The notes under the pieces: generated by a model
What the model was told of the DNA's origin: nothing
The model's database searches: none
The model's input: only the letters and a program-made list of their open reading frames with translations
Shown here: positions 20,591-53,994 of the stretch, one piece after another
Position numbering within the stretch: the stretch's first letter is position 1
Layout of the letters: every line of letters starts with the position of its first letter
Assembly (NCBI RefSeq): GCF_000332275.1
Contig: NZ_CM001776.1
Location: forward strand, 806,001-870,000
DNA: 64,000 nucleotides
Source of the DNA: Synechococcus sp. PCC 7336
GTDB lineage: Bacteria; Cyanobacteriota; Cyanobacteriia; Thermostichales; PCC-7336
Direction of reading: 5' to 3'
Position numbers and translations under genes: made by a program

Positions 20591-21880
20591 ATGTCTGCCA
20601 AGCTGCATCCCCTCCTCAACGATCCCCCGCTCTCCCTCAACACCCACAAACTGGCCCATCTACTGGGCAGTACCCCCAATGTGCTGATTGTCCAAGACCT
20701 CGATGGGGTCTGTATGGAATTGGTCAAAGATCCCCTCGATCGCCAGATCGACCCTACTTATGTGGTGGCCACCCAGCAATTCGATCGCCATTTTTACGTG
20801 CTCACCAACGGCGAGCATGTGGGAACGCGGGGGATGAATGTCATTGTGGAACGGGCCTTCGGCGATCGCGATCGGGTTCGATCGGAAGGGCTGTACTTGC
20901 CCGGTTTGGCGGCCGGTGGCGTGCAGTGGCAAGACCGCTTTGGCAACCTCGATTGTCCTGGGGTCAGCTCGGCAGAACTGTCCTTTTTGGCTGCTGTGCC
21001 GGGGCGCATTCAGAGGTGTTTGCGGCAATTTATCGAGCAGCATCCCGAGGCATTACCTTCGCAGGAAGCCGATCGCTGCATTCAGTCCTCCCTGTTGGAT
21101 AACATGGCCTCCCCCACCGCGAACCTAAACACCTTTCACGCGGCATTGGGCGATCGCACCGACCTCTACATCGAGTTGCAACGGCGGGTGTTGGATTTGA
21201 TGCAAACACTCTTGGCAGAAGCGGCGACGGGAGGGCTAAATGATTCTTTCTTCTTACACTTGGCTCCCAATTTAGGGCGAGATGAGATAGGCAACGAGCG
21301 CATTCGCTGGGCGAGCGATACCGATTCGGGCACAACGGATTTTCAATTGATGTTGCGGGGGGCGGTGAAAGAGGCTGGGGTTTTGGCGCTGCTCAATCGC
21401 TATTACCGCCAGCGCACGGGGGAGTTTCCGTTGGGAGAAAACTTTAGTGCCCGCCAAGCACCGAAAGAACACAGTGCTTTGTTGGAATTGGTGTTGGAAA
21501 ATTTCGACCCTGCGGCAATGCCGGCGATCGTGGGGGTGGGGGATACGGTCAATAGCTCTGTGGTGCAGGCGCAGGAACGGCTAGAGGTGCGGCGGGGGGG
21601 TAGCGATCGCAATTTTCTGCAGCTCGTTCAAGATATTGGTCGCACGTTTAATGTGGGCAATGTGGTGGCTTATATCGACAGCAGCGGTGGAGAGGTGAAA
21701 AATCGCAAGCCCGTCAGGGTGGATCGCAATAATCCCGAGAAACCAGTGGCGATCGAGGGGCCGGGAGACCCATTGGATGAGGCGGAACCGCTGACGTTGG
21801 ATCTGGTGTTTGCGGGGGGGCATCGAGAATATATTTCAGTGTTTCGAGCGGCGGCGCAGCAGCGAGCAGAGAATTTTTGA
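20591..21880 (+). CDS. ggpP: Glucosylglycerol-phosphate phosphatase
   Basis: GgpP (StpA) removes phosphate from glucosylglycerol-phosphate, the second and last step of GG synthesis. The 429-residue protein closely follows the StpA family as I know it: NVLIVQDLDGVCMELVKDPL (HAD motif I, DxDG), FYVLTNGEHVGTRG, GLYLPGLAAGGVQWQDRFG, SVLDN-like SLLDNMASPTANLNTF, SGTTDFQLMLRGAVKEAGVLALLNRYY and FSARQAPKEH, ending with VGVGDTVNS (HAD motif IV) and YIDSSGGEVKNRKPV. The partner ggpS lies 6.6 kb downstream. The first ATG at 20591 fits family length. Nothing suggests damage. Confidence 0.93.
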   Translation: MSAKLHPLLNDPPLSLNTHKLAHLLGSTPNVLIVQDLDGVCMELVKDPLDRQIDPTYVVATQQFDRHFYVLTNGEHVGTRGMNVIVERAFGDRDRVRSEGLYLPGLAAGGVQWQDRFGNLDCPGVSSAELSFLAAVPGRIQRCLRQFIEQHPEALPSQEADRCIQSSLLDNMASPTANLNTFHAALGDRTDLYIELQRRVLDLMQTLLAEAATGGLNDSFFLHLAPNLGRDEIGNERIRWASDTDSGTTDFQLMLRGAVKEAGVLALLNRYYRQRTGEFPLGENFSARQAPKEHSALLELVLENFDPAAMPAIVGVGDTVNSSVVQAQERLEVRRGGSDRNFLQLVQDIGRTFNVGNVVAYIDSSGGEVKNRKPVRVDRNNPEKPVAIEGPGDPLDEAEPLTLDLVFAGGHREYISVFRAAAQQRAENF

Positions 21881-23084: not shown

Positions 23085-24587
23085 TCAAACCGCCCAATGC
23101 TTCGCCCGCTTCACCGCCTCCTTCCACAAGCCAAAATTCTGCTGCGCCTGCTGCGCCCCCTCCCCCGGCACAAACACGCGATCGATCTGCCGCTGCGCCA
23201 CCATCTCGGCATAGCTGGGGTAAAACCCCACCGCCAAACCCGCCGCAAACGCCGCCCCCTGTGCCGTCGCATCGGCGATCGCCGGACGTTCCACTTCAAT
23301 CCCGGCAACATCCGCCTGAAACTGCATCAAGAAATTATTTTGACAGGCCCCCCCGTCCACCTTCAGCCGCCGGATAGGGGTACCGAGGTCGAGATTGACG
23401 CACTCCACAATCTCGCACACCTGATAGGCGATCGCCTCCAACACCGCCCGCACCATATGCTCTCGCTGTACGCCGCCGGTAATGCCCAAAAATGCGCCGC
23501 GCGCGCTCATATCCCAATGGGGAGCCCCCAAACCGCTGAGGGCAGGGACAAAAAAGACGCCGTCGCTGTCGGGGACCGAGCGGGCAATCTCCTCCGTCTC
23601 CGCAGAAGACTGAATGATTTTCAAACCATCCCGCAGCCATTGAATGCAGGCACCCCCCGTAAACATGCTGCCTTCTAGGGCATAACCCGCCTTGAATCCG
23701 CTCCCGTTCGTTTGTTCTGTCCAGGCCACCGTTGTGAGCAATTGATTCTGCGATCGCGCCATCTCTGCCCCCGTATGGGAGACCAGGAAGCAGCCGGTGC
23801 CGTAGGTGCATTTCATCAATCCGGGGCGATCGCAGCCGTGGGCAAACAGGGCCGCCTGTTGATCCCCCAAAATGGCGGTAATGGGCAGTTCTGCATCGCA
23901 AATAGAGGGTTCGAACCGGCCAAATTCCCCCAGGCTCGGCTTAATCTCCGGCAGTAGTTGGCGAGGAATGCCGAACAGATCGAGCAGCGTATCGTCCCAA
24001 TCGCCCGAGTCGAGGTTGAACAGCATCGTGCGGCTGGCGTTGCTGTGGTCGGTGGCGTGAACTTGCCTGCCCGTTAGATTCCACAAGATCCAAGTGTCAA
24101 TAGTCCCCGCCAAGACATTATTCAGGTCCAGATCCGGCTGAGCTTGCTTGACTTCGTTCAACAGCCAACTCAACTTGGTGGCCGAGAAATAAGCGTCCAG
24201 CACCAATCCCGTGCGTTCTGCAATCGTTTGGGCATGTCCCTCGTCCCGCAGGCGATCGCAGTTGGCCGCCGTGCGGCGATCCTGCCACACAATCGCTCTG
24301 TGCAAAGGCACTCCAGTGGCTTTATCCCAGAGCAAGCAGGTTTCCCGCTGCACCGTCAGCCCCACCGACTTGACGGCAGTAGGCGCAATGCCGGAACCGG
24401 CAAACACCTCCCGAATCACCGCTTGGGTATCCCGCCAAATTTCGCTAGCGTCGTGCTCCAGCCAGCCCGGTTGGGGATAGTACTGGGTGAATTCTTTGTA
24501 TGCTTGAGCGATCGCTTGGCCGCTAGCGTCAAATAAGATGGCGCGATTGCCTGTGGTGCCGAGATCGAGGGCCAGAATATAACTCAC
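23085..24587 (-). CDS. glpK: Glycerol kinase
   Basis: GlpK phosphorylates glycerol to glycerol-3-phosphate. The 500-residue protein has the FGGY-kinase N terminus LALDLGTTGNRAILFD, the catalytic segment AIVWQDRRTAANCD, TIDTWILWNLTG, and the ATP-site region GDQQAALFAHGCDRPG with KCTYGTGCF. The C-terminal signature RRLKVDGGACQNNFLMQFQADVAG is intact. It sits 25 bases after gghA on the same strand, so glycerol released from glucosylglycerol can be recycled. In Synechocystis glpK lies near the GG hydrolase gene too, which supports the assignment. Confidence 0.95.
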   Translation of the reverse strand: MSYILALDLGTTGNRAILFDASGQAIAQAYKEFTQYYPQPGWLEHDASEIWRDTQAVIREVFAGSGIAPTAVKSVGLTVQRETCLLWDKATGVPLHRAIVWQDRRTAANCDRLRDEGHAQTIAERTGLVLDAYFSATKLSWLLNEVKQAQPDLDLNNVLAGTIDTWILWNLTGRQVHATDHSNASRTMLFNLDSGDWDDTLLDLFGIPRQLLPEIKPSLGEFGRFEPSICDAELPITAILGDQQAALFAHGCDRPGLMKCTYGTGCFLVSHTGAEMARSQNQLLTTVAWTEQTNGSGFKAGYALEGSMFTGGACIQWLRDGLKIIQSSAETEEIARSVPDSDGVFFVPALSGLGAPHWDMSARGAFLGITGGVQREHMVRAVLEAIAYQVCEIVECVNLDLGTPIRRLKVDGGACQNNFLMQFQADVAGIEVERPAIADATAQGAAFAAGLAVGFYPSYAEMVAQRQIDRVFVPGEGAQQAQQNFGLWKEAVKRAKHWAV

Positions 24588-24612: not shown

Positions 24613-27270
24613 TTATGTGACGCCCCCTTCTCCCAGTGCCTCTGCCCGCCCTTGCCGCATCAATAGAATCGCCTGAGAGTCTTTGAGTTCGAAGGGACCC
24701 ACTTGCTCGCAGTTACCGCTTAACCCCAGACCGGGAGAGGCGATCGCCACCTTCCATTCCGCAGGCGAAATCTGCAGTAGGCGATCGAGGGAAATCTCGA
24801 CGGGGTTACCCCCCATATGGGCCACAATTGCCACTTGCTCCGGCAGGCGATCGGTTTGAACGAGTTCCCGAGGTTCAGTCCGCATACCGTAGAATACCGT
24901 CGATTCTGCATTCCCCAAACACTCGAATATATCCTCTTTGGTGCGCAGATTGCGTCGCAGCCAACGGTGATGGCGGCGAAACTGGCGCACGGCTCGATTG
25001 TAAGCAGTTTGGATCGGGTCTAGGGCCAACTGGTGCAAAGACACATTGCAAATGTCGTAGCAATCTTCCATAAAGGCCCGCGCAAACCGCTGCAGCCGCT
25101 CCACATTCAGGCTGGAGAGCCCCTTCGATTTCCCCGGCTTATTGAGCTGGCTGAGGGCGCGGGCATAGGTGGCACAACTGGAGGCATAGTCCTGAATTTC
25201 GCCATCGTCCCAAGTGGAAAAGTCTACATCATCCGCCAAACAGCTCTGGCAAATGCGGGTCACCCCCTCCAAATTGAACTCCATCACGCTGATGGCTTCG
25301 TGCAGTCCTCGGATAAATGCCTTGAGCTCGTCATAGTCCGTAAAGCCGAAATGCTTCAGCCGTTCGAAATTTCCTTCAGCGGCATACATCTCCGGTGGCA
25401 CCTGCCATTCTAGAAAGCCCCCCTCCTCTGCCACCACCTTGACGCCGTAATAATCATCTGTGTTGCGAACAAATCCCCAGGGCGATCGAGCGGTGGCGTT
25501 GATAAAGTCCATCGGCAGACCAGGCATAAACCCATAAGTCAGCAACGTTGTAGCGGGATTGTCGTAGGCGTTTTTCAACACCTCCTGGAGACTGTCACCC
25601 AAGTTCCAATTAATCAATCCGTCGGGATCGATCTGGGTGCCGCGACGGACGGTGTCGTGGTTGCCGCAACCCGTAATCCAATGAGATCCGTGGTAGATAG
25701 TCTCTTGCACTCGACCCCACTTATCCTCCCAAAAACCAATCAGGGCAGGCGTATTGTGGGCAAAAATGAGCGGTCCCCACTGATAGCAGTCGGGCATGAT
25801 CCGAATCAGATCTAAATAGGTGGACGATTCTTCCCAACCTTCTTCCGGCCAAGGACGGCCATCTTCAAAAATGCAGAATAGCTTGCGACAGCGACCGCCA
25901 ATATTCTGCTTGAGGTCCGCCATCGCCTGTAAGTAGACGTCGTCGTATTCCACTCTCCCAGAGAGAGGATTGAAAAATTTGAAATCTTGGGCGCCGTCAA
26001 TCCGCAGGCCATCCACACCGGTATTCATCTTGCGCCGCTGCATCTCCAATAACATGGCCCGCACAGTGGGGTTTTGATGGTTGACATCCTGACCGTACAT
26101 ATTCGGGCCTTTGAGATAGCGCCCGTTCAAGAGATCGAGCACCTGGTTGTCGGCGTGACCGTAAACAATGTCATAAATCAGTTGAATGGGACCCGAGGGA
26201 AAGGTGTGCAGCGTTTCAATAAAGTCCACCAGTTCGTCGGGTCGCTGCGTTTCCAAGAGAGCGGGGTTGGTGGCAGCCATGCCGGAGAGCACAATATCGT
26301 ATCCCCAGTTTTGGGTATTGGGTTTGTAGAGCACGACATCCACCTGGCTCATGCCGGGGTCGTCGTTCAGGGGCTGCCAAAATTGATGCCCTTCGCCGCG
26401 ATATTCCACAGTGGGTTCCACCGGCATCAGTTGTAAGGCATCGTATTCCACATAGTTTTCTTCAGCGGGGGTAAGGGGCTCGCCAGCAGAAATTTTGGCA
26501 GCAAGATTGCGATAGACCTGGGTCAAGCCCGCGATCGAGCCTTGTTTTGAGGCCGTACCCACATGCAACTGCAGAATATTGGTGGGGGTGGGCACCCGCA
26601 CGGCGGCAGAGGGGTCCATCTGCACGGGGCCAAAATGTTCTAGGTCTGCCCGCCCCCGTTGCAAGCGATTGAAATCGTATACCTCCGCTGGGGCAAATAT
26701 CCCAAACGGTAAAGAGGTGGCCAGAACATCGTGAATCACCGTTCGCACGGAGAGACCCACTTCGTTGGGGTCTAAGCTTTCGCTCAAATAGCGCAGCCAA
26801 TAGAGAGAGCCGAGCTGGTGGCGATCGCCAATGGTTAACCCTCGCAACACCCCCCAGACATATTCCCCCCGCTGCTCCAGTTGAATGTAGTCTCGCTGAA
26901 AGCGCACCGTTTGGCTGGGTTGGGGAAAATCCACCGGTTCTAGGGGGGTGAATACCTCCAAATAAACGTCTTTTAGCAGAATGGTGCCGGGGGCTAGTTC
27001 CGGGGCCCAGAAGCCGATGGAGACGCTGCCGTCGGGACGACAGTGCATGCCGAGCCGCGTTGCCAGTATTTGGGCTTTGCGCAACAGGGTTTCGTTGGAG
27101 GATTCAATTTCATTCGCCCAATCCAACATCTCTTGAGTGGCCTCGCGATCGAGGCGGACTGCAATGTTGGAGGCTGGCGAGATCGCCCCATCGCGAAGCT
27201 CGGACTGCCCCGCATTAGCCTGCATTCTTTGCAGGGGGTCGTCTGCATGTGCCGTGCTTACCTGGTTCAA
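24613..27270 (-). CDS. gghA: Glucosylglycerol hydrolase
   Basis: GghA hydrolyses GG to glucose and glycerol, lowering the compatible-solute pool after a salt downshift. The 885-residue protein is a GH13-like enzyme with the size of the Slr1670 family. Visible elements: LIYDIVYGHADNQ, GVDGLRIDGAQDFKFFNP (nucleophile Asp in RIDGAQ), a catalytic Glu in LFCIFEDGRPW, and ITGCGNHDTVRRGTQ for the third acidic residue. The N-terminal 230 residues form a beta-rich domain and the C-terminal part a helical domain ending in a strand set. Its place directly upstream of glpK in one transcription unit, in a GG region, supports this over other GH13 roles. Confidence 0.88.
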   Translation of the reverse strand: MNQVSTAHADDPLQRMQANAGQSELRDGAISPASNIAVRLDREATQEMLDWANEIESSNETLLRKAQILATRLGMHCRPDGSVSIGFWAPELAPGTILLKDVYLEVFTPLEPVDFPQPSQTVRFQRDYIQLEQRGEYVWGVLRGLTIGDRHQLGSLYWLRYLSESLDPNEVGLSVRTVIHDVLATSLPFGIFAPAEVYDFNRLQRGRADLEHFGPVQMDPSAAVRVPTPTNILQLHVGTASKQGSIAGLTQVYRNLAAKISAGEPLTPAEENYVEYDALQLMPVEPTVEYRGEGHQFWQPLNDDPGMSQVDVVLYKPNTQNWGYDIVLSGMAATNPALLETQRPDELVDFIETLHTFPSGPIQLIYDIVYGHADNQVLDLLNGRYLKGPNMYGQDVNHQNPTVRAMLLEMQRRKMNTGVDGLRIDGAQDFKFFNPLSGRVEYDDVYLQAMADLKQNIGGRCRKLFCIFEDGRPWPEEGWEESSTYLDLIRIMPDCYQWGPLIFAHNTPALIGFWEDKWGRVQETIYHGSHWITGCGNHDTVRRGTQIDPDGLINWNLGDSLQEVLKNAYDNPATTLLTYGFMPGLPMDFINATARSPWGFVRNTDDYYGVKVVAEEGGFLEWQVPPEMYAAEGNFERLKHFGFTDYDELKAFIRGLHEAISVMEFNLEGVTRICQSCLADDVDFSTWDDGEIQDYASSCATYARALSQLNKPGKSKGLSSLNVERLQRFARAFMEDCYDICNVSLHQLALDPIQTAYNRAVRQFRRHHRWLRRNLRTKEDIFECLGNAESTVFYGMRTEPRELVQTDRLPEQVAIVAHMGGNPVEISLDRLLQISPAEWKVAIASPGLGLSGNCEQVGPFELKDSQAILLMRQGRAEALGEGGVT

Positions 27271-28454: not shown

Positions 28455-29969
28455 ATGCGTGAGAAATCTTCTTTAGTCATCCTGTATCATCGCGAACCTT
28501 ACGACGAGGTGCGCAAAGACGGGAAAGTTTTCTATCAAGAAAAGAAAAAGCCCAACGGCATTGTGCCCACGCTGAAAAGCTTTTTCTTGAATGCGGACCA
28601 GAGCACTTGGATCGCCTGGAAGCAAGTCACTACCCGCCAGCGGGAGACGTTTCAGGAAACCGTCTCGGTGGGCGAGGGCGAAAATTGCATCGTCCGTCGC
28701 ATTCCCCTCAGCTCCCAAGAGGTGCGCGACTTTTACCACATCACCTCAAAAGAAGCCTTCTGGCCCATTTTGCACTCCTTCCCCAGCCAGTTCACTTACG
28801 ACACGGCTAACTGGGAGAATTTCAAGTACATCAACCAGTTATTTGCAGATGCCGCCTGCAAAGAAGCTGCTGACGATGCCCTAATTTGGGTTCACGACTA
28901 CAACCTCTGGTTGGCCCCTGCCTTCATCCGGGAGAAGAAACCCAACGTACGGATTGCCTTCTTCCACCACACCCCCTTCCCCTCCGCCGATATTTTTGGC
29001 ATTTTGCCCTGGCGTCAGGCGATTGTAGATAGTTTGCTCTGCTGCGACCTGTTAGGCTTCCACATTCCCCGCTACGTGGAAAACTTTGTCTCGGCAGCCG
29101 GTAGCGTGCGCCATTTAGAGGTCCTCGAACGCGGCGAAGTGGATGATGCATTCACCAAGCTCGGTCCGGCACTGGCCCAGCGGGAAATGACCACCAAGGT
29201 GCAATACGGCGATCGCACCATTCGTCTCGACGCTTTCCCCGTCGGCACCAATCCCAAACTGATCGACAGCATCCTGGAAAAGCCGGAAACCAGCCAGCGA
29301 ATTGCCAAAATTCGCGAGGAAATTGGCGATTGCAAGCTCATCCTTTCCGCCGGTCGCGTGGACTACGTCAAGGGCACCCGCGAACTGCTGCTGTCTTACG
29401 AGCGCCTGCTGGAACGACGCCCCGAACTGCATAGCAAAGTGATTTTGCTCAATGTCTCTGTAGCAGCTGCCGAAGGCATGCGAGTCTACCGAGAATACCG
29501 CCAAGAGATCGAGCAACTCGCCGGCAAGATTAACGGTCGCTTCGCCACCCTCAACTGGGTTCCCATTCGCCTGTTCACCAAGCCCTTTCCCTTCGAAGAG
29601 ATCGTTGCCTATTACCGAGCTGCCGATGTCGCCTTTATTCCGCCATTGCGGGACGGTCTCAACCTGGTGGCCAAAGAATATATTGCCGCCAAACAGGGCA
29701 CTGGCGGCGCTTTGATCTTGTCGGAATTTACCGGTTCTGCAGTGGAATTACCAGATGCAATTCTGGCGAACCCCCATTCCTTTATGTCCTTGAATAACAG
29801 TCTCGACGAGGCGCTGGATATGCCTCTGGAAGAGCAACAGCGGCGCATGCAAAAGCTGTACAAGGCCGTTACCCGCTATGATGTCAACCAGTGGGCCAAT
29901 CACCTATTCAGAGAGGCGATGGCGATCGACAACTCGGGGGCAGAGAAGTTCTTAGCCACAATTACCTAA
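28455..29969 (+). CDS. ggpS: Glucosylglycerol-phosphate synthase
   Basis: GgpS transfers glucose from ADP-glucose to glycerol-3-phosphate, the committed step of GG synthesis in the cytoplasm. It is a GT20 protein related to trehalose-phosphate synthase, 504 residues long (Synechocystis GgpS is about 500). Motifs: LIWVHDYNLWLAPAFIRE, FFHHTPFPSADIFGILPW, LLGFHIPRYVENF, LSAGRVDYVKGTRELL and the nucleotide-sugar site FIPPLRDGLNLVAKEYIAAK. The N-terminal KSSLVILYHREPYDE is the GgpS version and lacks the UDP-glucose type loop of OtsA. It is followed by glpD on the same strand, as in Synechocystis. Confidence 0.95.
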   Translation: MREKSSLVILYHREPYDEVRKDGKVFYQEKKKPNGIVPTLKSFFLNADQSTWIAWKQVTTRQRETFQETVSVGEGENCIVRRIPLSSQEVRDFYHITSKEAFWPILHSFPSQFTYDTANWENFKYINQLFADAACKEAADDALIWVHDYNLWLAPAFIREKKPNVRIAFFHHTPFPSADIFGILPWRQAIVDSLLCCDLLGFHIPRYVENFVSAAGSVRHLEVLERGEVDDAFTKLGPALAQREMTTKVQYGDRTIRLDAFPVGTNPKLIDSILEKPETSQRIAKIREEIGDCKLILSAGRVDYVKGTRELLLSYERLLERRPELHSKVILLNVSVAAAEGMRVYREYRQEIEQLAGKINGRFATLNWVPIRLFTKPFPFEEIVAYYRAADVAFIPPLRDGLNLVAKEYIAAKQGTGGALILSEFTGSAVELPDAILANPHSFMSLNNSLDEALDMPLEEQQRRMQKLYKAVTRYDVNQWANHLFREAMAIDNSGAEKFLATIT

Positions 29970-30149
29970 CCGAGTAATCGTCCTGCAACTCCTCTGGCCG
30001 AGCGAAGTCAAAGCCAGATTGCCCGACCGCGAGCCCCTTTCTCCCTTGGAGACACTTTGCGAAGACTCCGCTCGGAGACGCTTACCATCCGAGCCAGCTT
30101 AGGGCGATCGCCCATCTCTGGCAAGGGTTTGCTGAATTCAAATAGAAAC

Positions 30150-31853
30150 ATGCACGACTTGCAAGCCATTCAATCTGCCCACTACGATCTGATTGTCATT
30201 GGAGGTGGCATCAATGGGGCGGGAGTCGTGCGAGATGCAGCCATGCGGGGATTGCAAGCCATCCTCATCGAGAAAGGAGATTTCGGTGGCGGCACCACCA
30301 GTTGGTCCACCCGACTGATCCACGGCGGTTTGCGGTATTTGGAGTACCTGGAGTTTCCCCTCGTGCGGGAATCACTTCGGGAACGGGAAATCTTGCTCCG
30401 CAACGCCCCCCACTTAGTCAAACCCATCCAGCTCACGTTGCCCTTCTACCGCAACCAGTCCCACAAAAGCTGGACCATTCAAGCGGGGATGTTGCTCTAC
30501 GACATACTCAGTTACGACAAGTCGCTCCCCAACCACCGCATCTTAGGAACTGCCCAGTGCAAGCACCTCTTCCCCTCGCTTGCCCCCACCGATTTGCTGG
30601 GAGCAGCTCAATATTATGACGCTCAGGCGGAGTATGCCGAGCGCTTGTGCTTGGAAGTGATTCAGTCGGCGGCTGAAGTGGGGGCCACCGTTTTGAACTA
30701 CACCGAAGTGACGGACGTGCAGCAGCAGAACGGCTGCATCGATCGAGTGATGTGCCGCGACGTGCTGACGGGGGTAGAGTTCGGCATCTCAGTTGGCCCC
30801 AATACGGTGGTAGTCAACACCGCCGGTCCTTGGTTAGATCGCGTCTGTCAGCTCGGAACTCGATCGGGTCAACCGCAGCCTTTGTGCGATCGCCGCTTGC
30901 TGAGTGGCACCAAAGGCAGCCACATTTTTGTCGATCCCTTCCCTGGAGCCCCCAGCACTGCCCTGTACGCAGAAGCGGCCCAAGACGGACGCCCCTATTT
31001 CATCGTTCCTTGGTTGGGGGGCTTCTTAATCGGCACCACTGATTTTCGCTACGAAGGAGATCTCGATCGCGTCAAAGCAGATAACGACGAAATCGATTAC
31101 TTGATTGCAGCCACCAACGCCATGCTGCCCGCTGCCCAACTGACGCGAGAAAGCGTGCGCTTCACCTACTCGGGGGTGCGTCCCCTGCCCTATCGCGAAA
31201 GCAAAAAAGCGGGAGCTATCACCCGCAAGCACATCATTCTCGACCATGCCAAAGAGGGGGGGATCGGCAATCTGCTCTCCCTGATTGGCGGCAAACTCAC
31301 CACCCACCGCAGCAGCAGCCAGGAAATGGTGGATGAGGTCTACACTAAATTGGGCAAAGCAACTCCCCCCTGCAACACGGCAGAAACCCCACTGCCCGGT
31401 GCCATCGACGCCAGCGATCCAGCGATCGCGGAGAGTTTGCAGCGCTACGGCGATCGCCTCTCTCCCCTCGCCATCTACCACTTGTTCGATCTGTATGGCA
31501 GTCAGGCCCCTGCAGTTCTGGCCTTGGGGGATAGTACCCCCGAATTATTCGAACCCATTGTCAAAGGCTTGCTCGACATTAAAGCGCAAGCAGTCTATGC
31601 CGTTCAGTGCGAATATGCCCGCACCCTGACCGATATTGCCAACCGCCGTACCGCTTTGTCGGTACTAGACCGTTACGGTTGTGAAGCGGTGAAGGCGATC
31701 GCCGATGTCTTAGTGCGCCACTGCAGTTGGGATCCCCAAACCTGCGACGCACAAATTGCCCAGCACTACACCTATATGGAGGAAAATTGCATTCCCGACT
31801 ACGCCGAAGACATTCTCCCCGAGGCTTCTCGTTCTCTGCAGCCCGCTGGCTAG
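30150..31853 (+). CDS. glpD: FAD-dependent glycerol-3-phosphate dehydrogenase
   Basis: GlpD oxidises glycerol-3-phosphate to dihydroxyacetone phosphate at the membrane, passing electrons to quinone. The 567-residue protein has the FAD-binding dinucleotide fold DLIVIGGGINGAGVVRDAAMRG, FGGGTTSWSTRLIHGGLRYLEYLEF (family signature), and the substrate region with WLGGFLIGTTDFRYEGD and TYSGVRPLPYRE. The C-terminal domain contains LSLIGGKLTTHRSSSQEM. An upstream extension from 30057 looks untranslated; ATG 30150 begins the conserved part. It lies 180 bases after ggpS and may consume excess glycerol-3-phosphate or recycle that from GlpK. Confidence 0.93.
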   Translation: MHDLQAIQSAHYDLIVIGGGINGAGVVRDAAMRGLQAILIEKGDFGGGTTSWSTRLIHGGLRYLEYLEFPLVRESLREREILLRNAPHLVKPIQLTLPFYRNQSHKSWTIQAGMLLYDILSYDKSLPNHRILGTAQCKHLFPSLAPTDLLGAAQYYDAQAEYAERLCLEVIQSAAEVGATVLNYTEVTDVQQQNGCIDRVMCRDVLTGVEFGISVGPNTVVVNTAGPWLDRVCQLGTRSGQPQPLCDRRLLSGTKGSHIFVDPFPGAPSTALYAEAAQDGRPYFIVPWLGGFLIGTTDFRYEGDLDRVKADNDEIDYLIAATNAMLPAAQLTRESVRFTYSGVRPLPYRESKKAGAITRKHIILDHAKEGGIGNLLSLIGGKLTTHRSSSQEMVDEVYTKLGKATPPCNTAETPLPGAIDASDPAIAESLQRYGDRLSPLAIYHLFDLYGSQAPAVLALGDSTPELFEPIVKGLLDIKAQAVYAVQCEYARTLTDIANRRTALSVLDRYGCEAVKAIADVLVRHCSWDPQTCDAQIAQHYTYMEENCIPDYAEDILPEASRSLQPAG

Positions 31854-31956: not shown

Positions 31957-33504
31957 ATGCAGAATAACTTCTTTAGCGATTCCTTAGACAAAAGAAGCCT
32001 CAAACAACGCATCCGTCAATTAAGCAGAGCAAAAATTGGTTTCTATAGCATTGGGCTATATCCAGCCTCCCTGGCTTACAATTCGGCAATGCAGAAAAGT
32101 GAGAAATCTTTATTGCTTGCTCCCCGTCCGGGAAGAGAGCTGCTTGGGGCATTTTCAGAAGAAGAAATTCACGGCATGGATCCTAAGCATGTGGCCAAAA
32201 TGATCCGCATGGCCCATCACAAAGAAGAAGGTCAATCTGTTCCAAACAGTTTGGAATATTTGATTCTTAGGTGCGATCTGGTGCTGTTGAGTGCGAACAG
32301 TAAATATATCGAACAAGATCTAGCTGAAGCTCAAGCCATCAAAGAAAAATTACAACGACCCAATGTCGTTTTAACCTGCTTGGCAGGCTCCTTCAACCAC
32401 GATGAAGCCAAAGATGATTCATATGTATTGTGTGAGAAAAATACTAATTTAGCATTTTTCTCTGGTTTCCACAGGCATGGGGCCTTGCGCGATCCAGTTG
32501 ATAGCTTTACGGCTAATTTTTGCCATCCTAATGCACTTACAGCTTTGTTAGGCGCGCACATGCTCAATAGGCTTTCTCCAAACATTCAGGTGTCCCCTGG
32601 AATTCATAATGTTGAAGCACAATATATTAAAGCTGCAAAAAACATGTCGTCCATTTTTGCGGGCTTTGGATATGAGTTCCACCAGCAAAATCCTGGTATG
32701 TTGCCAACGTTGCTGACGTTGCTTCTCAATCAGTGCCTCGATCAAGCGGCAACTGTTTCCATGTCTCGGAAAGACCGCCACAAACTTTACAATCGTCAAA
32801 CGATCGCTTTGACTGAATTGGGATATGCCGTTCCGCGAATTGAAGCAACTCTAGATAAAGGTGGTTTCACCGAGAGAGCCCGCGATCATACTTTTTCTCA
32901 GCTAACAGCCATAGTAGCTGATGTACGAGGCAGTATGATGCTGCCCGTTCGAGGTCAACCCACGAGGAATTTTCAAGCTGGTCAGGCACTAGCCCGAGGA
33001 ATGACAGCAAATAATCGCTGTCCTGTCAATGTTGAAGAATTCGAACAATGGTGCGAGCAGCGAGGACTCAATAAAGGTGCTTTAGAGGGGTTAAAGGCTT
33101 TAAGATATTGGCCTCAAATCGAAGAAAAATATGCCATCCCCAATCACGATGCTTCAATGGTCAATCTTTTGTACAAGGGAATATATGGCCGCGAAGAAGA
33201 AAAAGATTTTGCTTTTGAAGTCATGACTGAAAGTCGAGAATTATCGAATTATTGTCAGGAGTCAGTGCGACATACGCATAGCCGCAAATATGCCGAAGCT
33301 TTAAACAATATAGGGCGACCCGAAGCTCTGGAGCTAATTGCTAACACTATCATTGCGGACAATGCCAGAAAGGCTATTTTAAATAACGATTGCGCGATCG
33401 AAGAAAGAGAAGTTCAGCCGGACGATCCGGCATACTTACGAGTCATGGACTATATCGAACAAAGTGTGCGTAAGTCATTTGAAACTATTGGCTGCCATTC
33501 GTGA
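31957..33504 (+). CDS. Divergent GpsA-like dehydrogenase in the glucosylglycerol region (function unassigned)
   Basis: The 515-residue protein is not one I can name. Near its N terminus a Rossmann-like strand-turn-helix (AKIGFYSIGLYPASLAYN) lacks a clean GxGxxG. Then CDLVLLSANSKYIEQDLAEAQ and NVVLTCLAGSF resemble the GpsA dinucleotide fold. At 218-229, NVEAQYIKAAKNM places K228 where GpsA has its catalytic lysine (ALKN). The protein is longer than GpsA (about 330) because of an extra C-terminal part. Translation probably begins at ATG 31957; the longer frame from 31756 overlaps glpD. Base composition is lower in GC than the neighbours. Its place after ggpS-glpD suggests a glycerol-3-phosphate role, which is inference. 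Confidence 0.6.
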   Translation: MQNNFFSDSLDKRSLKQRIRQLSRAKIGFYSIGLYPASLAYNSAMQKSEKSLLLAPRPGRELLGAFSEEEIHGMDPKHVAKMIRMAHHKEEGQSVPNSLEYLILRCDLVLLSANSKYIEQDLAEAQAIKEKLQRPNVVLTCLAGSFNHDEAKDDSYVLCEKNTNLAFFSGFHRHGALRDPVDSFTANFCHPNALTALLGAHMLNRLSPNIQVSPGIHNVEAQYIKAAKNMSSIFAGFGYEFHQQNPGMLPTLLTLLLNQCLDQAATVSMSRKDRHKLYNRQTIALTELGYAVPRIEATLDKGGFTERARDHTFSQLTAIVADVRGSMMLPVRGQPTRNFQAGQALARGMTANNRCPVNVEEFEQWCEQRGLNKGALEGLKALRYWPQIEEKYAIPNHDASMVNLLYKGIYGREEEKDFAFEVMTESRELSNYCQESVRHTHSRKYAEALNNIGRPEALELIANTIIADNARKAILNNDCAIEEREVQPDDPAYLRVMDYIEQSVRKSFETIGCHS

Positions 33505-34243
33505 ATTTTCCTTCGATTGTGGCTGTGGTCGATACGATGGTATCGCCAATTTGGATGCGATCGACCCAAGCCATGCTGTCTTCCTCGACATAGCCAAATA
33601 CTGCATAGCGGCCATCCAGTTGAGGTTGATCGGAGAGGGTGAAGTAAAACTGTGACGAGGCGCTATTGGGTGCTCTCGATCGCGCCATAGCTATAGCTCC
33701 GCGAATGTGGGAAAGGGCTGGAAGTTTAGAAATGTCTGCCCTGTCAAAGAACTTGTTGTAATAGGTTTTGTATTGGGGAATGCCGTCTTTGCTGGAAAGT
33801 TTGACTGAAATCTCCAACGGGATCTGGCGGGTGCGTAGCGTCTCGGGATCGACAAACCCACCTGTGCCGTCACCTTTTGGATCGCCCCCCTGCACCACAA
33901 AAGGATCGGGCCGCGCGACCACCCGATGGAAGGTCAATCCGTGATAAAATCCGCGCTCCACCAAATCGATAAAATTGCCTGCCGTCAGAGGAGCCGCATC
34001 CCCATTCAACACAATTGCAATCGTACCCCGTCCCGCAGCAGCCGTATCCACCACCATGTCGATCTCGGCGGTTCCCTCCAGGTGGGGGCGATCGGCATAT
34101 TGGGCCGCGATCGCCTCATTAGCCAGATCGACATCTGAAGTAGGCGGACCGCAGGCCGTTAAGAACGAGAAGAGCAGGACAGCCCCGCAAAGCAGCTTAA
34201 AGCCTTGGCGAATCTGACATGGCAGCGATCGCAATACTGACAT
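33485..34243 (-). CDS. Cyclophilin-type peptidyl-prolyl isomerase, lipoprotein
   Basis: This 252-residue protein has a lipoprotein signal (LLCGAVLLFSFLTACGPP, lipobox LTAC) so it should be anchored on the outer face of the cytoplasmic membrane. The cyclophilin domain covers about 60-245, with GNFIDLVERGFYHGLTFHRVV, FVVQGGDPKGDGTGG, and SSQFYFTLSDQPQLDGRYAVFGYV. The catalytic Arg in FHRV is present, and Phe and Gln of FVVQGGDP are kept. An insertion near LEISVKLSSKDGIPQYKTYYN is typical of cyanobacterial members. Its 3' end overlaps the end of the GpsA-like gene by 20 bases on the opposite strand. Confidence 0.88.
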   Translation of the reverse strand: MSVLRSLPCQIRQGFKLLCGAVLLFSFLTACGPPTSDVDLANEAIAAQYADRPHLEGTAEIDMVVDTAAAGRGTIAIVLNGDAAPLTAGNFIDLVERGFYHGLTFHRVVARPDPFVVQGGDPKGDGTGGFVDPETLRTRQIPLEISVKLSSKDGIPQYKTYYNKFFDRADISKLPALSHIRGAIAMARSRAPNSASSQFYFTLSDQPQLDGRYAVFGYVEEDSMAWVDRIQIGDTIVSTTATIEGKFTNGSQ

Positions 34244-41668: not shown

Positions 41669-42198
41669 TCAACCAGGTCGCCGTAGGTGGAGAGCCCCGT
41701 ACATTGAAAGTGTGGCAACCGCTAGAGGGACTTACCCCAACAGGCTTCGGCATTGTCAATAGATTGCTGTCACAACAAAGCCCCCATATCGAAAGCGTCA
41801 AGACACCTCATATCATCCAATAAGCAAATAGAGAGTACAGTGCGCCATTGATTAGCATAAAGATATGCAAAGCTTGAACAGGCAAAGCAATGTTTTGTTT
41901 CGAAATCTAACTTTCTTCCCTTTAAGTCGAACTGTCGCTATAGGAAACAGCTATGCTCAGCGAGAAGGTCGCTAAATATAGAGTGTTTGTCTGGCTAAAA
42001 CTGAGCCTGTAAATTAGCCTATCTAGCTGTTCGTTATCTGTTAGAGTGGTCTGTTAAAAGCACCTGTCTGTCAGGTACTGCACTCTTATTATGTAGACTC
42101 TACTCTGAAGCTATGCATAGATTCAGAGTAGGAATTCAAGGGAGAGAAGTTAAAATTCCTAGAACTATGACGTAACTAGCCATCTTCTGGAGCCGTTG
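41669..42198. other. Leader region of the HEPN-ATPase module
   Basis: These 530 bases are AT-rich, free of HIP1 sites and non-coding as far as I can see. The last 100 bases hold two overlapping inverted repeats (separate entry). A promoter for the module should be here, but I cannot point to one -10/-35 pair with confidence. Confidence 0.4.
42100..42161 (+). promoter_or_regulatory. Two overlapping hairpins upstream of the HEPN gene
   Basis: Arms CTACTCTGAA (42100-42109) and TTCAGAGTAG (42122-42131) form a perfect 10-base stem. Arms TAGGAATT (42129-42136) and AATTCCTA (42154-42161) form a second 8-base stem sharing bases 42129-42131 with the first, so only one can close fully. The pair sits 38 bases before the HEPN start codon and could be an operator or an attenuator. 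Confidence 0.45.
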
Positions 42199-42699
42199 AT
42201 GGGCCTGAAATCGCCGCATCTGTTACTTGCATCTTCAAATCCTAATCGGATGCTTGCCAACCTTTCCCATATTCTAGATGCTTCAGCATGTAATGTCATC
42301 AGAAGTGAAATCGATAAAAATGTAAAACTACTGTTTGATCTTGGAGAATCACATTACCTTTTTGCAAAACAATTAGCAAAAAGTCATTGGCGGCAAAGGA
42401 TTTCCAGGCTTTATTATGGCGCTTATAATGCTAGGCGCGCTATAAATCTTCATGAGGATGGTTCTTTTGGAACAGATGTAGACGATCATAAAAAGACTGG
42501 ACTCCCAGATAAACTAAACAATTCTAGTACCTATACAAATCAGCTTCGAGTTTTACGAGAGGATAGAAATCTATCAGATTACGATCACACCGCCTCTGAG
42601 GCTGACCTGGTTCTTACACAAGATGAAGCAGAACGATTTGTCACAGACTTTCTGAAGGATGCGCGGTTGTACTTAGTTAGTAGAGGAATAGCTTTATGA
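42199..42699 (+). CDS. HEPN-domain protein (candidate ribonuclease/toxin)
   Basis: The 166-residue protein has the HEPN helical pattern: WRQRISRLYYGAYNARRAINLHEDG at 64-88 and QLRVLREDRNLSDYDHTASEAD at 116-136. The second contains R123-N-L-S-D-Y-D-H130, which fits the catalytic RX4-6H motif of HEPN ribonucleases (compare RNKADYDP in minimal HEPN proteins). A second R-x4-H (R80-H85) exists in the first helix. ATG 42199 follows GGAG at 6 bases. The ATPase starts inside its stop codon (ATGA), so the two are coupled. Low GC and absence of HIP1 mark it as foreign. RNase activity is inferred from the family. Confidence 0.7.
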   Translation: MGLKSPHLLLASSNPNRMLANLSHILDASACNVIRSEIDKNVKLLFDLGESHYLFAKQLAKSHWRQRISRLYYGAYNARRAINLHEDGSFGTDVDDHKKTGLPDKLNNSSTYTNQLRVLREDRNLSDYDHTASEADLVLTQDEAERFVTDFLKDARLYLVSRGIAL

Positions 42700-44249
42700 G
42701 TACAGGTTCAACAATAACGGTAGACCAGGACAAATATTTAGAAGAAGTAATAAGCCAATTCAAGCAAACAACCCGACTGACTCAGGTTGCATATGATACA
42801 AAAGAACGATCTGAAGGCAACTATCTGATTATCTACCTACACAATCCAACTGATCGCTTCTTTAAGTTACTTGAGCAAGGTTTAGACACCTTACCCGAAG
42901 AAAACCCCTATAAGAAAAGAACGACAATCAAGAAAAGGGTATCAAAATCTAGCAATCGACTTCAATTGCCAGAAACGCAATTTTTGAGAACGGTTCTATC
43001 TGAGAGTCTTACTGTAACTGAACACAGCTTTGCCGATGATTTTTTTACAAGATATATTAGGTCGGTGTCTGGAGATGAGGAACAAATTATAAGTCAAGGA
43101 AATCATATTGTTTATGGACGAAGAGGGGCGGGAAAATCAAGCCTTCTAGCCTACTTGATGCATAGGCTACGTCAATTGCCTTCTCCTTATGCCTGGGTAA
43201 CAATACAAACTTACAGTGGACGAAAGGATATATCGACTATATCTGAAGTGCTGATTGATATCATAGATCAATTGAAGAGATATGCTTCCGATAAAAGTGG
43301 GTTTGACGCATTATTAATTAATCTTGAAGAGATTCTTGACAAAAACGATGATGAGTTGATTGAGCAACTTAACCGATTGATTCCTCGGATAAGGAGAGCT
43401 TTTGGTAAAATTGTCTCAGAGAGCGGAATATTTGTTTTTCTGGATGATATACATGTTATTTCAGAAGTACTTCAGCCTATCTTGTTAGATAAACTATATT
43501 CTATCTGTCGAGGGAACCGAGTCTTCTTGAAAATTTCTGGTATTGAGCAGTTTGTTAAATTACGAGACCCCGCTTCACGCCAAGGACTTGAGACGCCAGG
43601 TGACATTCAAGTAATTCGGCTAGATTACAATCTAACGATGCCAGATAAATCCAAGAATCATATTCAGGAAATCTTAAATTCACATGCAACTTATTGTGGC
43701 CTTCAAAGTGTAGATTATATTTGTGGAAAGGGTGTAATAGATCGTTTGGTCTGGGTGGCAGCAGGGGTTCCACGCGATGCGCTCTATTTGTTCGCTAGGG
43801 CAATTAGTGAGTCTAGTGTAAAAGGCAATAAAAAGGTTTCTGTTACTAGTGTGAATGTCGCTGCGTCTGAAATGACCGAAGAGAAACTCCGAGATATTAA
43901 GATTGATGCTTCCGGTAAATATGAGGAGGTCAATCAGCTCCTAGAGTCAATTCGAAACTTCTGTGTTACCGAGAAACGTAAAAATGTCTTCCTGGTAGAG
44001 ATTCAAAATGAAAGTCCAGCTTTTCATAAAATTGAGGAGTTGATAGCTCTACGTCTCCTTCATATTTTATCTTCTGGCTTTACGCCGAAAGAGGTTGGCA
44101 GACGTTATATGGCTCTTATGCTAGATTACGGATTTTACGTAGGCCTACGTACTGCAAAGAGTATAGACCTATTTGCAAAAGAGCCTAAGCCCTTACAAGC
44201 TCAAGAGCTACGAAAATTCCCTAGATTTAAACTGCCTACGGCTGGTTGA
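42696..44249 (+). CDS. P-loop ATPase coupled to the HEPN protein
   Basis: This 517-residue protein has Walker A GRRGAGKSS at 141-149 and Walker B IFVFLDD at 245-251, with an arginine-rich helix (IPRIRRAFGK) before it. The layout, P-loop followed by WVTIQTYS, FLDDIHVIS, and IKISG-like LKISGIEQFVKLRD, is that of STAND/AAA ATPases used as molecular switches. The N-terminal 120 residues (DQDKYLEEVISQFKQTTRL and LIIYLHNPTDRFFKLLEQG) and the C-terminal 150 residues match nothing I know. The C-terminal part has a winged-helix look (VEIQNESPAFHKIEELIALRLLHIL). It probably senses a signal and controls the HEPN partner. Confidence 0.72.
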   Translation: MSTGSTITVDQDKYLEEVISQFKQTTRLTQVAYDTKERSEGNYLIIYLHNPTDRFFKLLEQGLDTLPEENPYKKRTTIKKRVSKSSNRLQLPETQFLRTVLSESLTVTEHSFADDFFTRYIRSVSGDEEQIISQGNHIVYGRRGAGKSSLLAYLMHRLRQLPSPYAWVTIQTYSGRKDISTISEVLIDIIDQLKRYASDKSGFDALLINLEEILDKNDDELIEQLNRLIPRIRRAFGKIVSESGIFVFLDDIHVISEVLQPILLDKLYSICRGNRVFLKISGIEQFVKLRDPASRQGLETPGDIQVIRLDYNLTMPDKSKNHIQEILNSHATYCGLQSVDYICGKGVIDRLVWVAAGVPRDALYLFARAISESSVKGNKKVSVTSVNVAASEMTEEKLRDIKIDASGKYEEVNQLLESIRNFCVTEKRKNVFLVEIQNESPAFHKIEELIALRLLHILSSGFTPKEVGRRYMALMLDYGFYVGLRTAKSIDLFAKEPKPLQAQELRKFPRFKLPTAG

Positions 44250-51199: not shown

Positions 51200-52081
51200 A
51201 TGCTGACACTAACCGAAAAGTACGAGCGCGATGGCTTCATTGGTCCCATTCAAGCATTTAGCCCCGATCGCATGAGCCAGTTGCTTGACGAACTTGAAAG
51301 GGATGTATTTGCTAAGAAAGGAATTGCTTTCAGTCGAAATAGACATTTGGATCTCAGTTCAGTCGATCTACTTTGTCAATCATCAGTTATTTATGAAAGT
51401 ATCGAGCAAATTCTTGGCAAAGATCTGACGTTGTGGAGATCCAATTTTTTTGCCATGAAACAAGGCATGGGACTAGGCTGGCATCAAGACCAATATAATA
51501 CCTTAATAGAAGATACAGCCAAACAGGTTTCGGTTCACTTGGGGATTACACAATCTTTTCCCGATAACTGCCTGTCAGTCATACCGGGTTCGCACAAATG
51601 GCCATCATCTGAATTGAAGCAGAAAGGATTCACATTAATACCGGGCACTGAAAAAGATTCCTATGGAACGCCTCATTTCGAGAGAGAGCCACAGATAGAA
51701 ATTAATAAGGTTCCTATTTTGCTACAACCTGGAGAGTTCATTGTTTTTCATCCCCAACTCATGCATGGATCGATCGATCGTAAGGCATCTAATCATTCTC
51801 ATGAAATGAGTCAGAGGTTTAAGAAAACATCTCCAATCTCCAAAGCTTTGCACAAGCTTAGTCGGGCCATGGAATCTTGGAACGATCGGCCTCATAGCGA
51901 AAAAAAGAACCCCTCGACAGTCCGTTTGGCCTTGGGAATGCGGGTCACAACGCCAGAGGTTGAAGTATATCCAAAGGCATTCCAACAGACTCTACCAAGA
52001 GTTGATAAATGTGTCCCCCTCACAGGAGAAACCAAGAAGTACGAAGATGAAATCAAAAATTACATGACAACAGAGGTGTGA
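51200..52081 (+). CDS. Phytanoyl-CoA dioxygenase (PhyH)-like Fe(II)/2-oxoglutarate oxygenase
   Basis: This 293-residue protein has the PhyH fold: LTEKYERDGFIGPIQAFSPD at the start, the iron site H-x-D in GLGWHQDQYN, the distal His in VFHPQLMHGSIDR, and a 2-oxoglutarate Arg candidate in TVRLALGMRV. Such enzymes hydroxylate or halogenate small metabolites, lipids or bound intermediates. The gene starts a low-GC cluster with an SDR, a glycosyltransferase and a sulfotransferase. The cluster suggests tailoring of a secreted or surface compound, but no scaffold gene is seen, so the product is unknown. Confidence 0.82.
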   Translation: MLTLTEKYERDGFIGPIQAFSPDRMSQLLDELERDVFAKKGIAFSRNRHLDLSSVDLLCQSSVIYESIEQILGKDLTLWRSNFFAMKQGMGLGWHQDQYNTLIEDTAKQVSVHLGITQSFPDNCLSVIPGSHKWPSSELKQKGFTLIPGTEKDSYGTPHFEREPQIEINKVPILLQPGEFIVFHPQLMHGSIDRKASNHSHEMSQRFKKTSPISKALHKLSRAMESWNDRPHSEKKNPSTVRLALGMRVTTPEVEVYPKAFQQTLPRVDKCVPLTGETKKYEDEIKNYMTTEV

Positions 52082-52086
52082 AGGCA

Positions 52087-52857
52087 ATGGAATCATCTTT
52101 GAGTCAAAAAGTCATCGTTTTGACCGGTGCAAGTCGTGGCATCGGTAGAGCAGTAGCGATTGGTTTGAGCAAAGACGAGGCAAAACTAGTATTAATTGCA
52201 CGCTCTGAAGCCGCTCTTCAGGAAACCATTGCGCTTTGTCATGGAGAACATGACTATATCGTGGGTGATGTCCGATCGGAATCTAATGTGAAGGAACTAT
52301 TCGATTTGGTGAAATCAAAACATGACAGACTCGACATGCTAATCAACAATGCTGGAGTCCATCCAAATCAGGAATTCTTAAAGATGGAGCACGATGATTG
52401 GCTCAACACGATTGGGATTAATTTATTTGGGGTAGCGCTATGTACTCGTCATGCATTAATGCAGCATATAATCCCTCAAGAGCGCGGCAAAATAGTCAAT
52501 ATTGTTTCTCGACAGGCGATGGCCCCTGTTAAGGGAAGTTCCGCTTACTCTGTCTCGAAAATGGGAGTCAGCATTCTCACTAAAGCCCTAGCCGTCGAAT
52601 TAGAACCTCATCACTACAGCAATATTTCTATATGCGATTTTATCCCTGGGCCAACGAAGACAAGTATGTGTCCTGGAGGCCAACCTCCCGAGAATGTCTA
52701 TCCAATGCTGAGAAATATTTTAGCGATGCCAGCATCGAGAACCCATGGGAAAATATTTCTGAGAGATAAACTATACAATTATTGCGATTCTTCAAGCAGC
52801 ACCGAGACTTGGAAAGATGGCATCCTGAAAATCCTCAACTTTATTCGTGGAAGATAG
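52087..52857 (+). CDS. Short-chain dehydrogenase/reductase
   Basis: The 256-residue enzyme has the classical SDR motifs: TGASRGIG for the dinucleotide, LINNAGVH, the catalytic Ser in NIVSRQAM and YSVSK for Tyr and Lys. The substrate is unknown. The frame could start at GTG 52078, overlapping the PhyH stop, but the family N terminus fits MESSLSQKVIVLTG at ATG 52087. It is the second gene of the low-GC cluster and may act after the PhyH-like oxygenase. Confidence 0.88.
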   Translation: MESSLSQKVIVLTGASRGIGRAVAIGLSKDEAKLVLIARSEAALQETIALCHGEHDYIVGDVRSESNVKELFDLVKSKHDRLDMLINNAGVHPNQEFLKMEHDDWLNTIGINLFGVALCTRHALMQHIIPQERGKIVNIVSRQAMAPVKGSSAYSVSKMGVSILTKALAVELEPHHYSNISICDFIPGPTKTSMCPGGQPPENVYPMLRNILAMPASRTHGKIFLRDKLYNYCDSSSSTETWKDGILKILNFIRGR

Positions 52858-52911
52858 TTGTAATTCTATGATGTGTAAAAGCTATTCATTTATGTATGCA
52901 TTGGATGTAAA

Positions 52912-53886
52912 GTGACTTCTTCCTTACAAAGACCAGTAGTCTCTGCGATCGTTCCCGCCTACAATGCCAGTCAATATATTGAGGAATGTATTCAGTCGGT
53001 ACTCGATCAAACTGAGGATAATCTTGAAATAGTTATTGTTGATGATGCATCAAGTGACAATACAGTTAGCGTCATACAGCAGTTTAAGGATGAGCGCATC
53101 CGTCTCTTCTGTTTGGAACGCAACCGCGGTGTCTCAGCAGCACGAAACTTTGCGATAGCACAAGCGCGAGGGGAATGGGTTGCTTTATTGGATGCTGATG
53201 ACTTCTGGAAACCTTCTAGAATCCAAGAGCTATTGATTCAAGCCCAAAAGTCGGATGTTGATGCGATCGCAGATAACATTATCCTATACGGTAGAAAATT
53301 ATCGAGAAACAACTTTAAGGCCCATAAACTTCTCTTTTCTGATAGCTTTTTTGAGGCCGAGCCCTACTTTCTGACAGCCAAAGAATTTATCATAGGCAAT
53401 ATGCCCGGTCCTGGCAATCCAATGATGGGTCTCATCAAGCCCATCTTTAAAAAAGAGTTCCTAGCCGAAAATAATATCACCTTTAACGAAGAGATCGCTT
53501 ATTGCGAAGATACACTATTTTATTTTGAGGCTTTGATGAATGGTGCAAAGCTACAAGTTGTACCTCAAGCTTACTATTTTTATCGCAGACACGAATCGAG
53601 CACAACCCGTTCAAGAGAAGCAATGTTAGGGTTGCGGCAAAGAATATCGTCTAGTTTATATCTTAAGAAGAAATATAGAGACAGTACTATTATTTCAGCC
53701 ATCGATCGAAGACATCGAGCTTTAATGCGTATCTATGCCTATCATGCAGTCAAAGAAAATACTCGCAATCGTCGATTGACAGAGATCGTTAGAGATTTTA
53801 GAGGCGATCCAATTCAATTTTTCCTTTATTTTTTACATACTTTAAACTTGCTTTCTTATCGATGGAAGAAGAGATTTTTTTTATAA
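52912..53886 (+). CDS. Family 2 glycosyltransferase
   Basis: The 324-residue protein is a GT-A transferase: VSAIVPAYNASQYIEECIQSVLDQ, EIVIVDDASSDNTVSVI, and the metal-binding D-x-D in ALLDADDFWKPSR. Later EIAYCEDTLFYFEALM is the base-containing ED motif. It begins with GTG 52912. It probably adds a sugar to a glycan or lipid. The C-terminal basic helix (FLHTLNLLSYRWKKRFFL) may touch the membrane. Low GC matches its neighbours. Confidence 0.87.
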   Translation: MTSSLQRPVVSAIVPAYNASQYIEECIQSVLDQTEDNLEIVIVDDASSDNTVSVIQQFKDERIRLFCLERNRGVSAARNFAIAQARGEWVALLDADDFWKPSRIQELLIQAQKSDVDAIADNIILYGRKLSRNNFKAHKLLFSDSFFEAEPYFLTAKEFIIGNMPGPGNPMMGLIKPIFKKEFLAENNITFNEEIAYCEDTLFYFEALMNGAKLQVVPQAYYFYRRHESSTTRSREAMLGLRQRISSSLYLKKKYRDSTIISAIDRRHRALMRIYAYHAVKENTRNRRLTEIVRDFRGDPIQFFLYFLHTLNLLSYRWKKRFFL

Positions 53887-53902
53887 ACTAAAAATCTCTT
53901 CT
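53867..53902 (+). terminator. Hairpin overlapping the end of the glycosyltransferase gene
   Basis: Arms AGAAGAGATTTTT and AAAAATCTCTTCT form a perfect 13-base stem with a 10-base loop across the stop codon. A T-run is part of the stem instead of following it, so it may act as a terminator, an mRNA stabiliser or neither. Confidence 0.35.
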
Positions 53903-53994
53903 AGAAATGAGTAAAATTAATTATTTGACTATATGATTGTTTTTCTTAGAGCCTGTGTTTGCTAATCTCTATCTTGCCGTTTTGGAGTATTAAT

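Follow-up and report, generated by a model that had tools for sequence, protein, structure and literature searches.

What does the protein encoded directly downstream of the glucosylglycerol genes of Synechococcus sp. PCC 7336 do, and is it a source of glycerol-3-phosphate (G3P), which cells require for their membrane glycerolipids? The window analysed here is a stretch of 64,000 nucleotides from this genome, which is a single contig of 5.07 Mb. It holds a gene for a glycerol-3-phosphate dehydrogenase (GPDH)-like protein that reads through without an internal stop (Table 1). A preliminary description had called the protein GpsA-like and placed it beside ggpS and glpD. That position was confirmed, with ggpS, the glpD-like gene and the GPDH-like gene following one another on the same strand. 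In the window, ggpS, glpD, glpK, the gghA-like gene and ggpP all lie within 13 kb and, therefore, the region amounts to a whole glucosylglycerol (GG) region. A canonical gpsA is also present in this genome, about 3.5 Mb from the GPDH-like gene.

Table 1. Genes of the glucosylglycerol region and sites within the GPDH-like gene (window positions)
Feature	Position	Strand	Basis and remarks
ggpP, glucosylglycerol 3-phosphatase	20591..21880	+	TIGR02399, above cut-off
glpK, glycerol kinase	23085..24587	-	TIGR01311, above cut-off
GHL5-family hydrolase, gghA-like	24613..27270	-	PF14872; gghA name from position beside ggpS and glpK (PMC6753628)
ggpS, glucosylglycerol-phosphate synthase	28455..29969	+	TIGR02398, E 8e-228, above cut-off
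glpD-like, FAD-dependent G3P dehydrogenase	30150..31853	+	PF01266 and PF16901; ATG start at 30150, frame opens with TTG at 30057
Divergent GPDH-like protein, 515 aa	31957..33504	+	Translation, model and fold search, family alignment
Degenerate dinucleotide-binding loop GFYSIGLYP, codons 28-36	32038..32064	+	Column counts, 63 sequences
K120 site, A/V/S, codon 143; S/T-K-G becomes L-A-G	32383..32385	+	Alignment columns against GpsA motifs, by hand
K225-A-A-K228-N229, codons 225-229	32629..32643	+	K225, K228 and N229 invariant in 63/63
D322 and S326, codons 322-326, proposed D260/T264 equivalents	32920..32934	+	Invariant; hand alignment from T-F anchor
R337-N338, phosphate-binding pair, codons 337-338, equivalent of R269-N270	32965..32970	+	Invariant; inside the PF07479-matched stretch
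Last 14 codons and stop, missing from homologues	33460..33504	+	Alignment; overlaps the open reading frame 33485-34243

Composition and origin of the window copy

The GPDH-like gene has a GC content of 0.439 and a GC3 of 0.399 compared to 0.54-0.59 and 0.56-0.70 for the surrounding genes, so it does differ in composition from its neighbours, as had been claimed. The open reading frame did not arise by chance, since full-length homologues with 46-84% identity were found in genomes whose copies range in GC3 from 0.23 to 0.88. The gene is thus real and strongly conserved. Its closest relatives are Xenococcaceae and Pleurocapsaceae proteins at 83% identity, and the window copy is nested among these (SH-aLRT 99) in a tree of which the Cyanobiaceae part is poorly resolved and the root is arbitrary. 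The Xenococcaceae and Pleurocapsaceae copies agree in composition with their own low-GC surroundings. The window copy probably came from Pleurocapsales-like donors, and the simplest reading is a recent horizontal acquisition into the site downstream of glpD, which explains the odd composition. The C-terminal tail extends beyond every homologue, into the antisense of the 3' end of the next gene. An origin from a phage or plasmid was rejected, as the phage, plasmid and viral collections held no homologue.

Two other low-GC segments of the window were observed on the plus strand. At 42196-44249, a pair of open reading frames (GC 0.39) that overlap by four bases encodes a 167-aa protein of no assigned family together with an ORC-CDC6-like AAA ATPase (PF24389); it looks like a foreign insert. 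At 51200-54987, an island of four genes encodes a PhyH dioxygenase, a short-chain dehydrogenase, a family 2 glycosyltransferase and a sulfotransferase, and was probably acquired.

Predicted fold and conserved residues

An AlphaFold2 model built from a diverse set of 63 homologues reached a pLDDT of 83.7 and a pTM of 0.82; an earlier model from 16 close sequences (pLDDT 56.5) was too poor for use. The model shows a Rossmann domain and a helical C-terminal domain, which is the layout of the GPDH fold. When it was compared with the PDB by Foldseek, the 20 top matches were all GPDHs, from organisms that include human, Leishmania, Archaeoglobus, Coxiella and Dunaliella, with a best E of 1.6e-9 and a TM of up to 0.71 by target length (Coxiella GpsA). 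The next family followed at E 1.5e-5 and TM 0.44, and ketopantoate and pyrroline-5-carboxylate reductases ranked well behind. Since GPDHs occupy all 20 leading ranks, with a clear gap to other reductases, the predicted fold is specifically that of a GPDH and not an unrelated one, and the GpsA-like label of the preliminary description held up.

Kinship to GpsA could not be proven from sequence alone by any of the sequence or profile methods tried. The protein is 12-14% identical to GpsA/GPD1, a sequence search of the PDB returned no match, and the profile comparison with GpsA was not significant (hhalign probability 1.3%). The Pfam domain NAD_Gly3P_dh_C (PF07479) matched residues 324-415 of the window protein at E 0.14. 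It was the sole recurring Pfam match in the family (8 of 63 sequences), and its best E of 0.003 was below the 25-bit cut-off; no NCBIfam model matched. About 100 residues follow the matched C-terminal domain, in agreement with the long extra region described previously, and the model predicts them as helical to about residue 475 and with low confidence thereafter.

The side chains K120, K204, N205, D260, T264, R269, N270 and Q295 are conserved in GPDHs (PMC12874384). Correspondence to these was drawn from sequence alignment rather than from coordinates, by hand for K120 and for D322/S326, and conservation was counted by column in the alignment of the 63 homologues. Six of the eight residues were matched, the last two by hand alignment: K228-N229, R337-N338 and D322/S326. 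The pair K228-N229, which the preliminary description had pointed out, corresponds to K204-N205 and is invariant in all 63 sequences, and K225 is an additional invariant lysine about one helical turn ahead of K228. R337-N338 paired with the S-R-N of GpsA in the hhalign alignment, and the invariant E377-G378 (63/63) matches the E-G of GpsA. D322 and S326 have the right spacing from each other, yet lie four residues farther from R-N than in GpsA. An ungapped alignment from the R-N side, which places D260 at S326, was set aside for the D322/S326 alignment because in the latter both the T-F anchor and the hydroxyl at D+4 fit. Judging from the aligned residues, D322 and S326 could substitute for D260 and T264.

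The remaining differences from GPDHs are considerable. The lysine of the K120 column is lost, with A (42), V (12) or S (9) in its place. The kcat of the human enzyme falls about 300-fold when either K120 or K204 is lost (PMC12874384) and, thus, the loss of K120 is serious but in principle not fatal. The dinucleotide-binding N terminus is degenerate, as had been noticed: the loop reads SxGxxP (S-I-G-L-Y-P) where GPDHs have GxGxxG. Its S31 and G33 do not vary among the 63 sequences. R57 and R60, after strand 2, are also invariant, and together with this loop they could suit NADP(H). Other invariant residues are special to the family, among them H172, R173, T185, N187 and H217. The protein was not filed as GpsA (PF01210 and PF07479, EC 1.1.1.94/1.1.1.8) because it lacks K120 and GxGxxG and falls below every family cut-off tested.

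Distribution with ggpP, ggpS and gpsA

The first survey covered 386 cyanobacterial genomes. Here and in the further surveys below, absences were called from profile searches of six-frame translations; many Cyanobiaceae genomes are incomplete, and genera were read as Prochlorococcus or marine Synechococcus, and the large family as Cyanobiaceae, by gene content and named tree relatives. The GPDH-like protein was found in 50 genomes: the window genome, one Pleurocapsales genome and 48 Cyanobiaceae. Every carrier has ggpP. The two genes stand head-to-head within 5 kb in 46 carriers and within 500 bp in 31; in one genome (G370) they lie on different contigs. By contrast, ggpS is present in 25 carriers and absent in 25, and another 27 genomes have ggpS without the GPDH-like gene. 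The 24 genomes with ggpP and without the GPDH-like gene all have ggpS. Three loci outside the window (L014, L048 and L054) likewise place the GPDH-like gene near ggpS, glpK and glpD. The link to GgpS drawn in the preliminary description therefore stands in part: the window gene sits within a complete GG region and is associated with ggpS over the 386 genomes (odds ratio 11, p 7e-12), but half of the carriers do without ggpS. The GPDH-like gene is not rare, nor is its presence tied to ggpS; its distribution follows ggpP and, within the Cyanobiaceae, complements that of canonical gpsA.

Among 300 Cyanobiaceae genomes, the GPDH-like gene was found in 159 and ggpP in 165, of which about 157 are common to both (hand count). 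Two near-complete Cyanobiaceae genomes carry only one of the pair and keep canonical gpsA: G445 has the GPDH-like gene (C1:136614-138122) without ggpP, and G459 has ggpP (C1:1972233-1973396) without the GPDH-like protein.

A PF07479 search of 15 complete genomes of Prochlorococcus and marine Synechococcus found gpsA in none, and all 15 carry the GPDH-like gene; other Cyanobiaceae genera and outgroups possess gpsA by the same search. With a full-length GpsA model, 151 Cyanobiaceae genomes divided into about 48 with gpsA alone, 16 with both, 59 with the GPDH-like gene alone and 28, mostly incomplete, with neither, where the GPDH-like column assumes that the 151 open the same draw as the 300, and good-quality totals then agree exactly. 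Among the 95 good genomes, 54 have gpsA, 39 have the GPDH-like gene without gpsA and two have neither (hand count), so 93 have one or the other. Of the two exceptions, G393 has a contig that stops 109 bases past ggpP, where the GPDH-like gene would start, and G438 (94% complete) apparently has neither gene.

Other routes to G3P were also sought. Profile searches detected both glpD and glpK in the genera g44 and g61 of marine Synechococcus and in g67, and found neither in g33, g36, g43, g51, g75 and g45; weak partial GlpD matches in such genera, with E above 1e-6 and mostly confined to 35-60 residues of the FAD-binding end, were disregarded. Nine complete genomes on which every search was run were without gpsA, glpD, glpK and ggpS, and all carry the GPDH-like gene. 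Thus, with gpsA, glpD and glpK sought, most Prochlorococcus-like genera tested showed no other known G3P-forming enzyme. GlpD/GlpA also interconverts G3P and dihydroxyacetone phosphate (DHAP), and glpD is the direct neighbour in the window, but it has an unrelated FAD fold and normally oxidises G3P.

Photoautotrophs make glycerolipids de novo and require G3P and, therefore, some GPDH must exist in Prochlorococcus. The GPDH-like protein is the only candidate found for these genomes. Prochlorococcus and marine Synechococcus dominate ocean photosynthesis, and the absence of an annotated standard G3P enzyme has been noted without a solution. A 2012 survey reported EC 1.1.1.94 as unannotated in Prochlorococcus and Synechococcus WH7803 (PMC3369817), and a passage of another paper assigns gpsA to freshwater strains, FAD-dependent glpA to marine picocyanobacteria and both to brackish strains (PMC9361551). 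The passages of these two papers on the gap do not name the GPDH-like protein. A figure legend of a review places a gpsA near ggpS/gghA in some cyanobacteria (PMC6753628), which may or may not be the GPDH-like gene.

Candidate function and alternatives

The GPDH-like protein is quite likely a strongly diverged NAD(P)H-dependent sn-glycerol-3-phosphate dehydrogenase that converts DHAP to G3P. We infer the reaction, the direction in which it runs, its cofactor and what each residue does. The N-terminal Rossmann domain would bind the dinucleotide, and R337-N338 would hold the phosphate of DHAP. K228, in the oxyanion hole and positioned by N229 and S326, would take part in the reduction of the carbonyl to give G3P; the task of the missing K120 lysine may fall to K225 or to another conserved residue. 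Where gpsA is kept, as in the window organism and in other salt-tolerant cyanobacteria, the protein may serve as an additional source of G3P alongside the synthesis of glucosylglycerol. No gpsA turned up in marine Synechococcus and Prochlorococcus, and there the protein would be the main or sole supplier of G3P for all glycerolipids. The best reading is that it is the only identified G3P source in most Prochlorococcus, and it is the best candidate there for making the backbone of all membrane lipids. If it is a true GPDH, one gene closes the G3P gap in metabolic models, marks a step separating marine from freshwater picocyanobacteria and provides G3P beside the salt-protectant pathway. The lost K120, the degenerate GxGxxG, the poor hhalign score and the G438 genome all speak against this reading, and a plain GPDH does not account for the tight linkage to ggpP in genomes that have no ggpS.

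One alternative is a GPDH-fold dehydrogenase whose substrate is a different phosphorylated compound connected with GgpP, such as acyl-DHAP or a glycosylated or sugar phosphate. The altered active site, with its family-special invariant residues, and the constant company of ggpP in the first survey, half of the time in genomes lacking ggpS, would suit such an enzyme. We consider it unlikely, as the phosphate-binding R-N and the catalytic K-N are retained and DHAP reduction is the very function missing from these genomes.

Full-length ggpP (TIGR02399, 490-720 bits) was observed in Prochlorococcus-like genomes without ggpS, for example at L059:6706-7914 (-) and L064:7487-8728 (-). Prochlorococcus GgpP retains the HAD segments D-x-D-G and GVGDT and, thus, probably still works as a phosphatase, with G3P itself or some other compound as its substrate. 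It is conceivable, though quite improbable, that in ggpS-less Prochlorococcus the GPDH-like protein and GgpP form a two-step module from DHAP through G3P to free glycerol or another phosphate-free glyceride. Such a module would give these cells an unrecognised small-molecule pathway in addition to a new GPDH family, and would be a functional parallel to the algal GPDH-phosphatase fusion. That fusion, the osmoregulatory DsGPDH of Dunaliella (PDB 6iuy), resembles the present case in its GPDH fold match and in joining a GPDH to a phosphatase in the salt response. It differs in that its fused activities make glycerol, whereas here the phosphatase is a separate gene product, GgpP, with glucosylglycerol phosphate as its known substrate.

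The preliminary description had also raised a non-catalytic role, in which a GpsA-derived protein regulates or partners GgpP or G3P metabolism. The degenerate loop, the missing K120 lysine and the bond to ggpP would fit, but R-N, K-N and other catalytic-type residues are invariant over deep divergence, and most Prochlorococcus tested would be left without an identified G3P source, making this idea very unlikely. Finally, a GPDH dedicated solely to supplying GgpS with G3P for glucosylglycerol is suggested by the GG loci and by the association with ggpS, but it was rejected as a general role and is very improbable because half of the carriers lack ggpS, ggpS genomes without the gene exist, the gene tracks ggpP and, within the Cyanobiaceae, occurs in place of gpsA, and lipid synthesis in the marine Synechococcus tested could not draw on a gpsA, since none was found there.

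Two further genes recur around the GPDH-like gene and ggpP. In most Cyanobiaceae loci, ggpP has as its same-strand neighbour a radical SAM gene of the arsS type (TIGR04167, arsenosugar biosynthesis), as at L059:5681-6613 (-) and in the same position in 14 others; this gene is absent from the window and from the loci of one genus (g56). In ten Cyanobiaceae loci, the GPDH-like gene is followed on its own strand by a gene for a kinase-like protein with a weak homoserine kinase/CotS match (cluster C9; for example L059:9838-10992 (+)).
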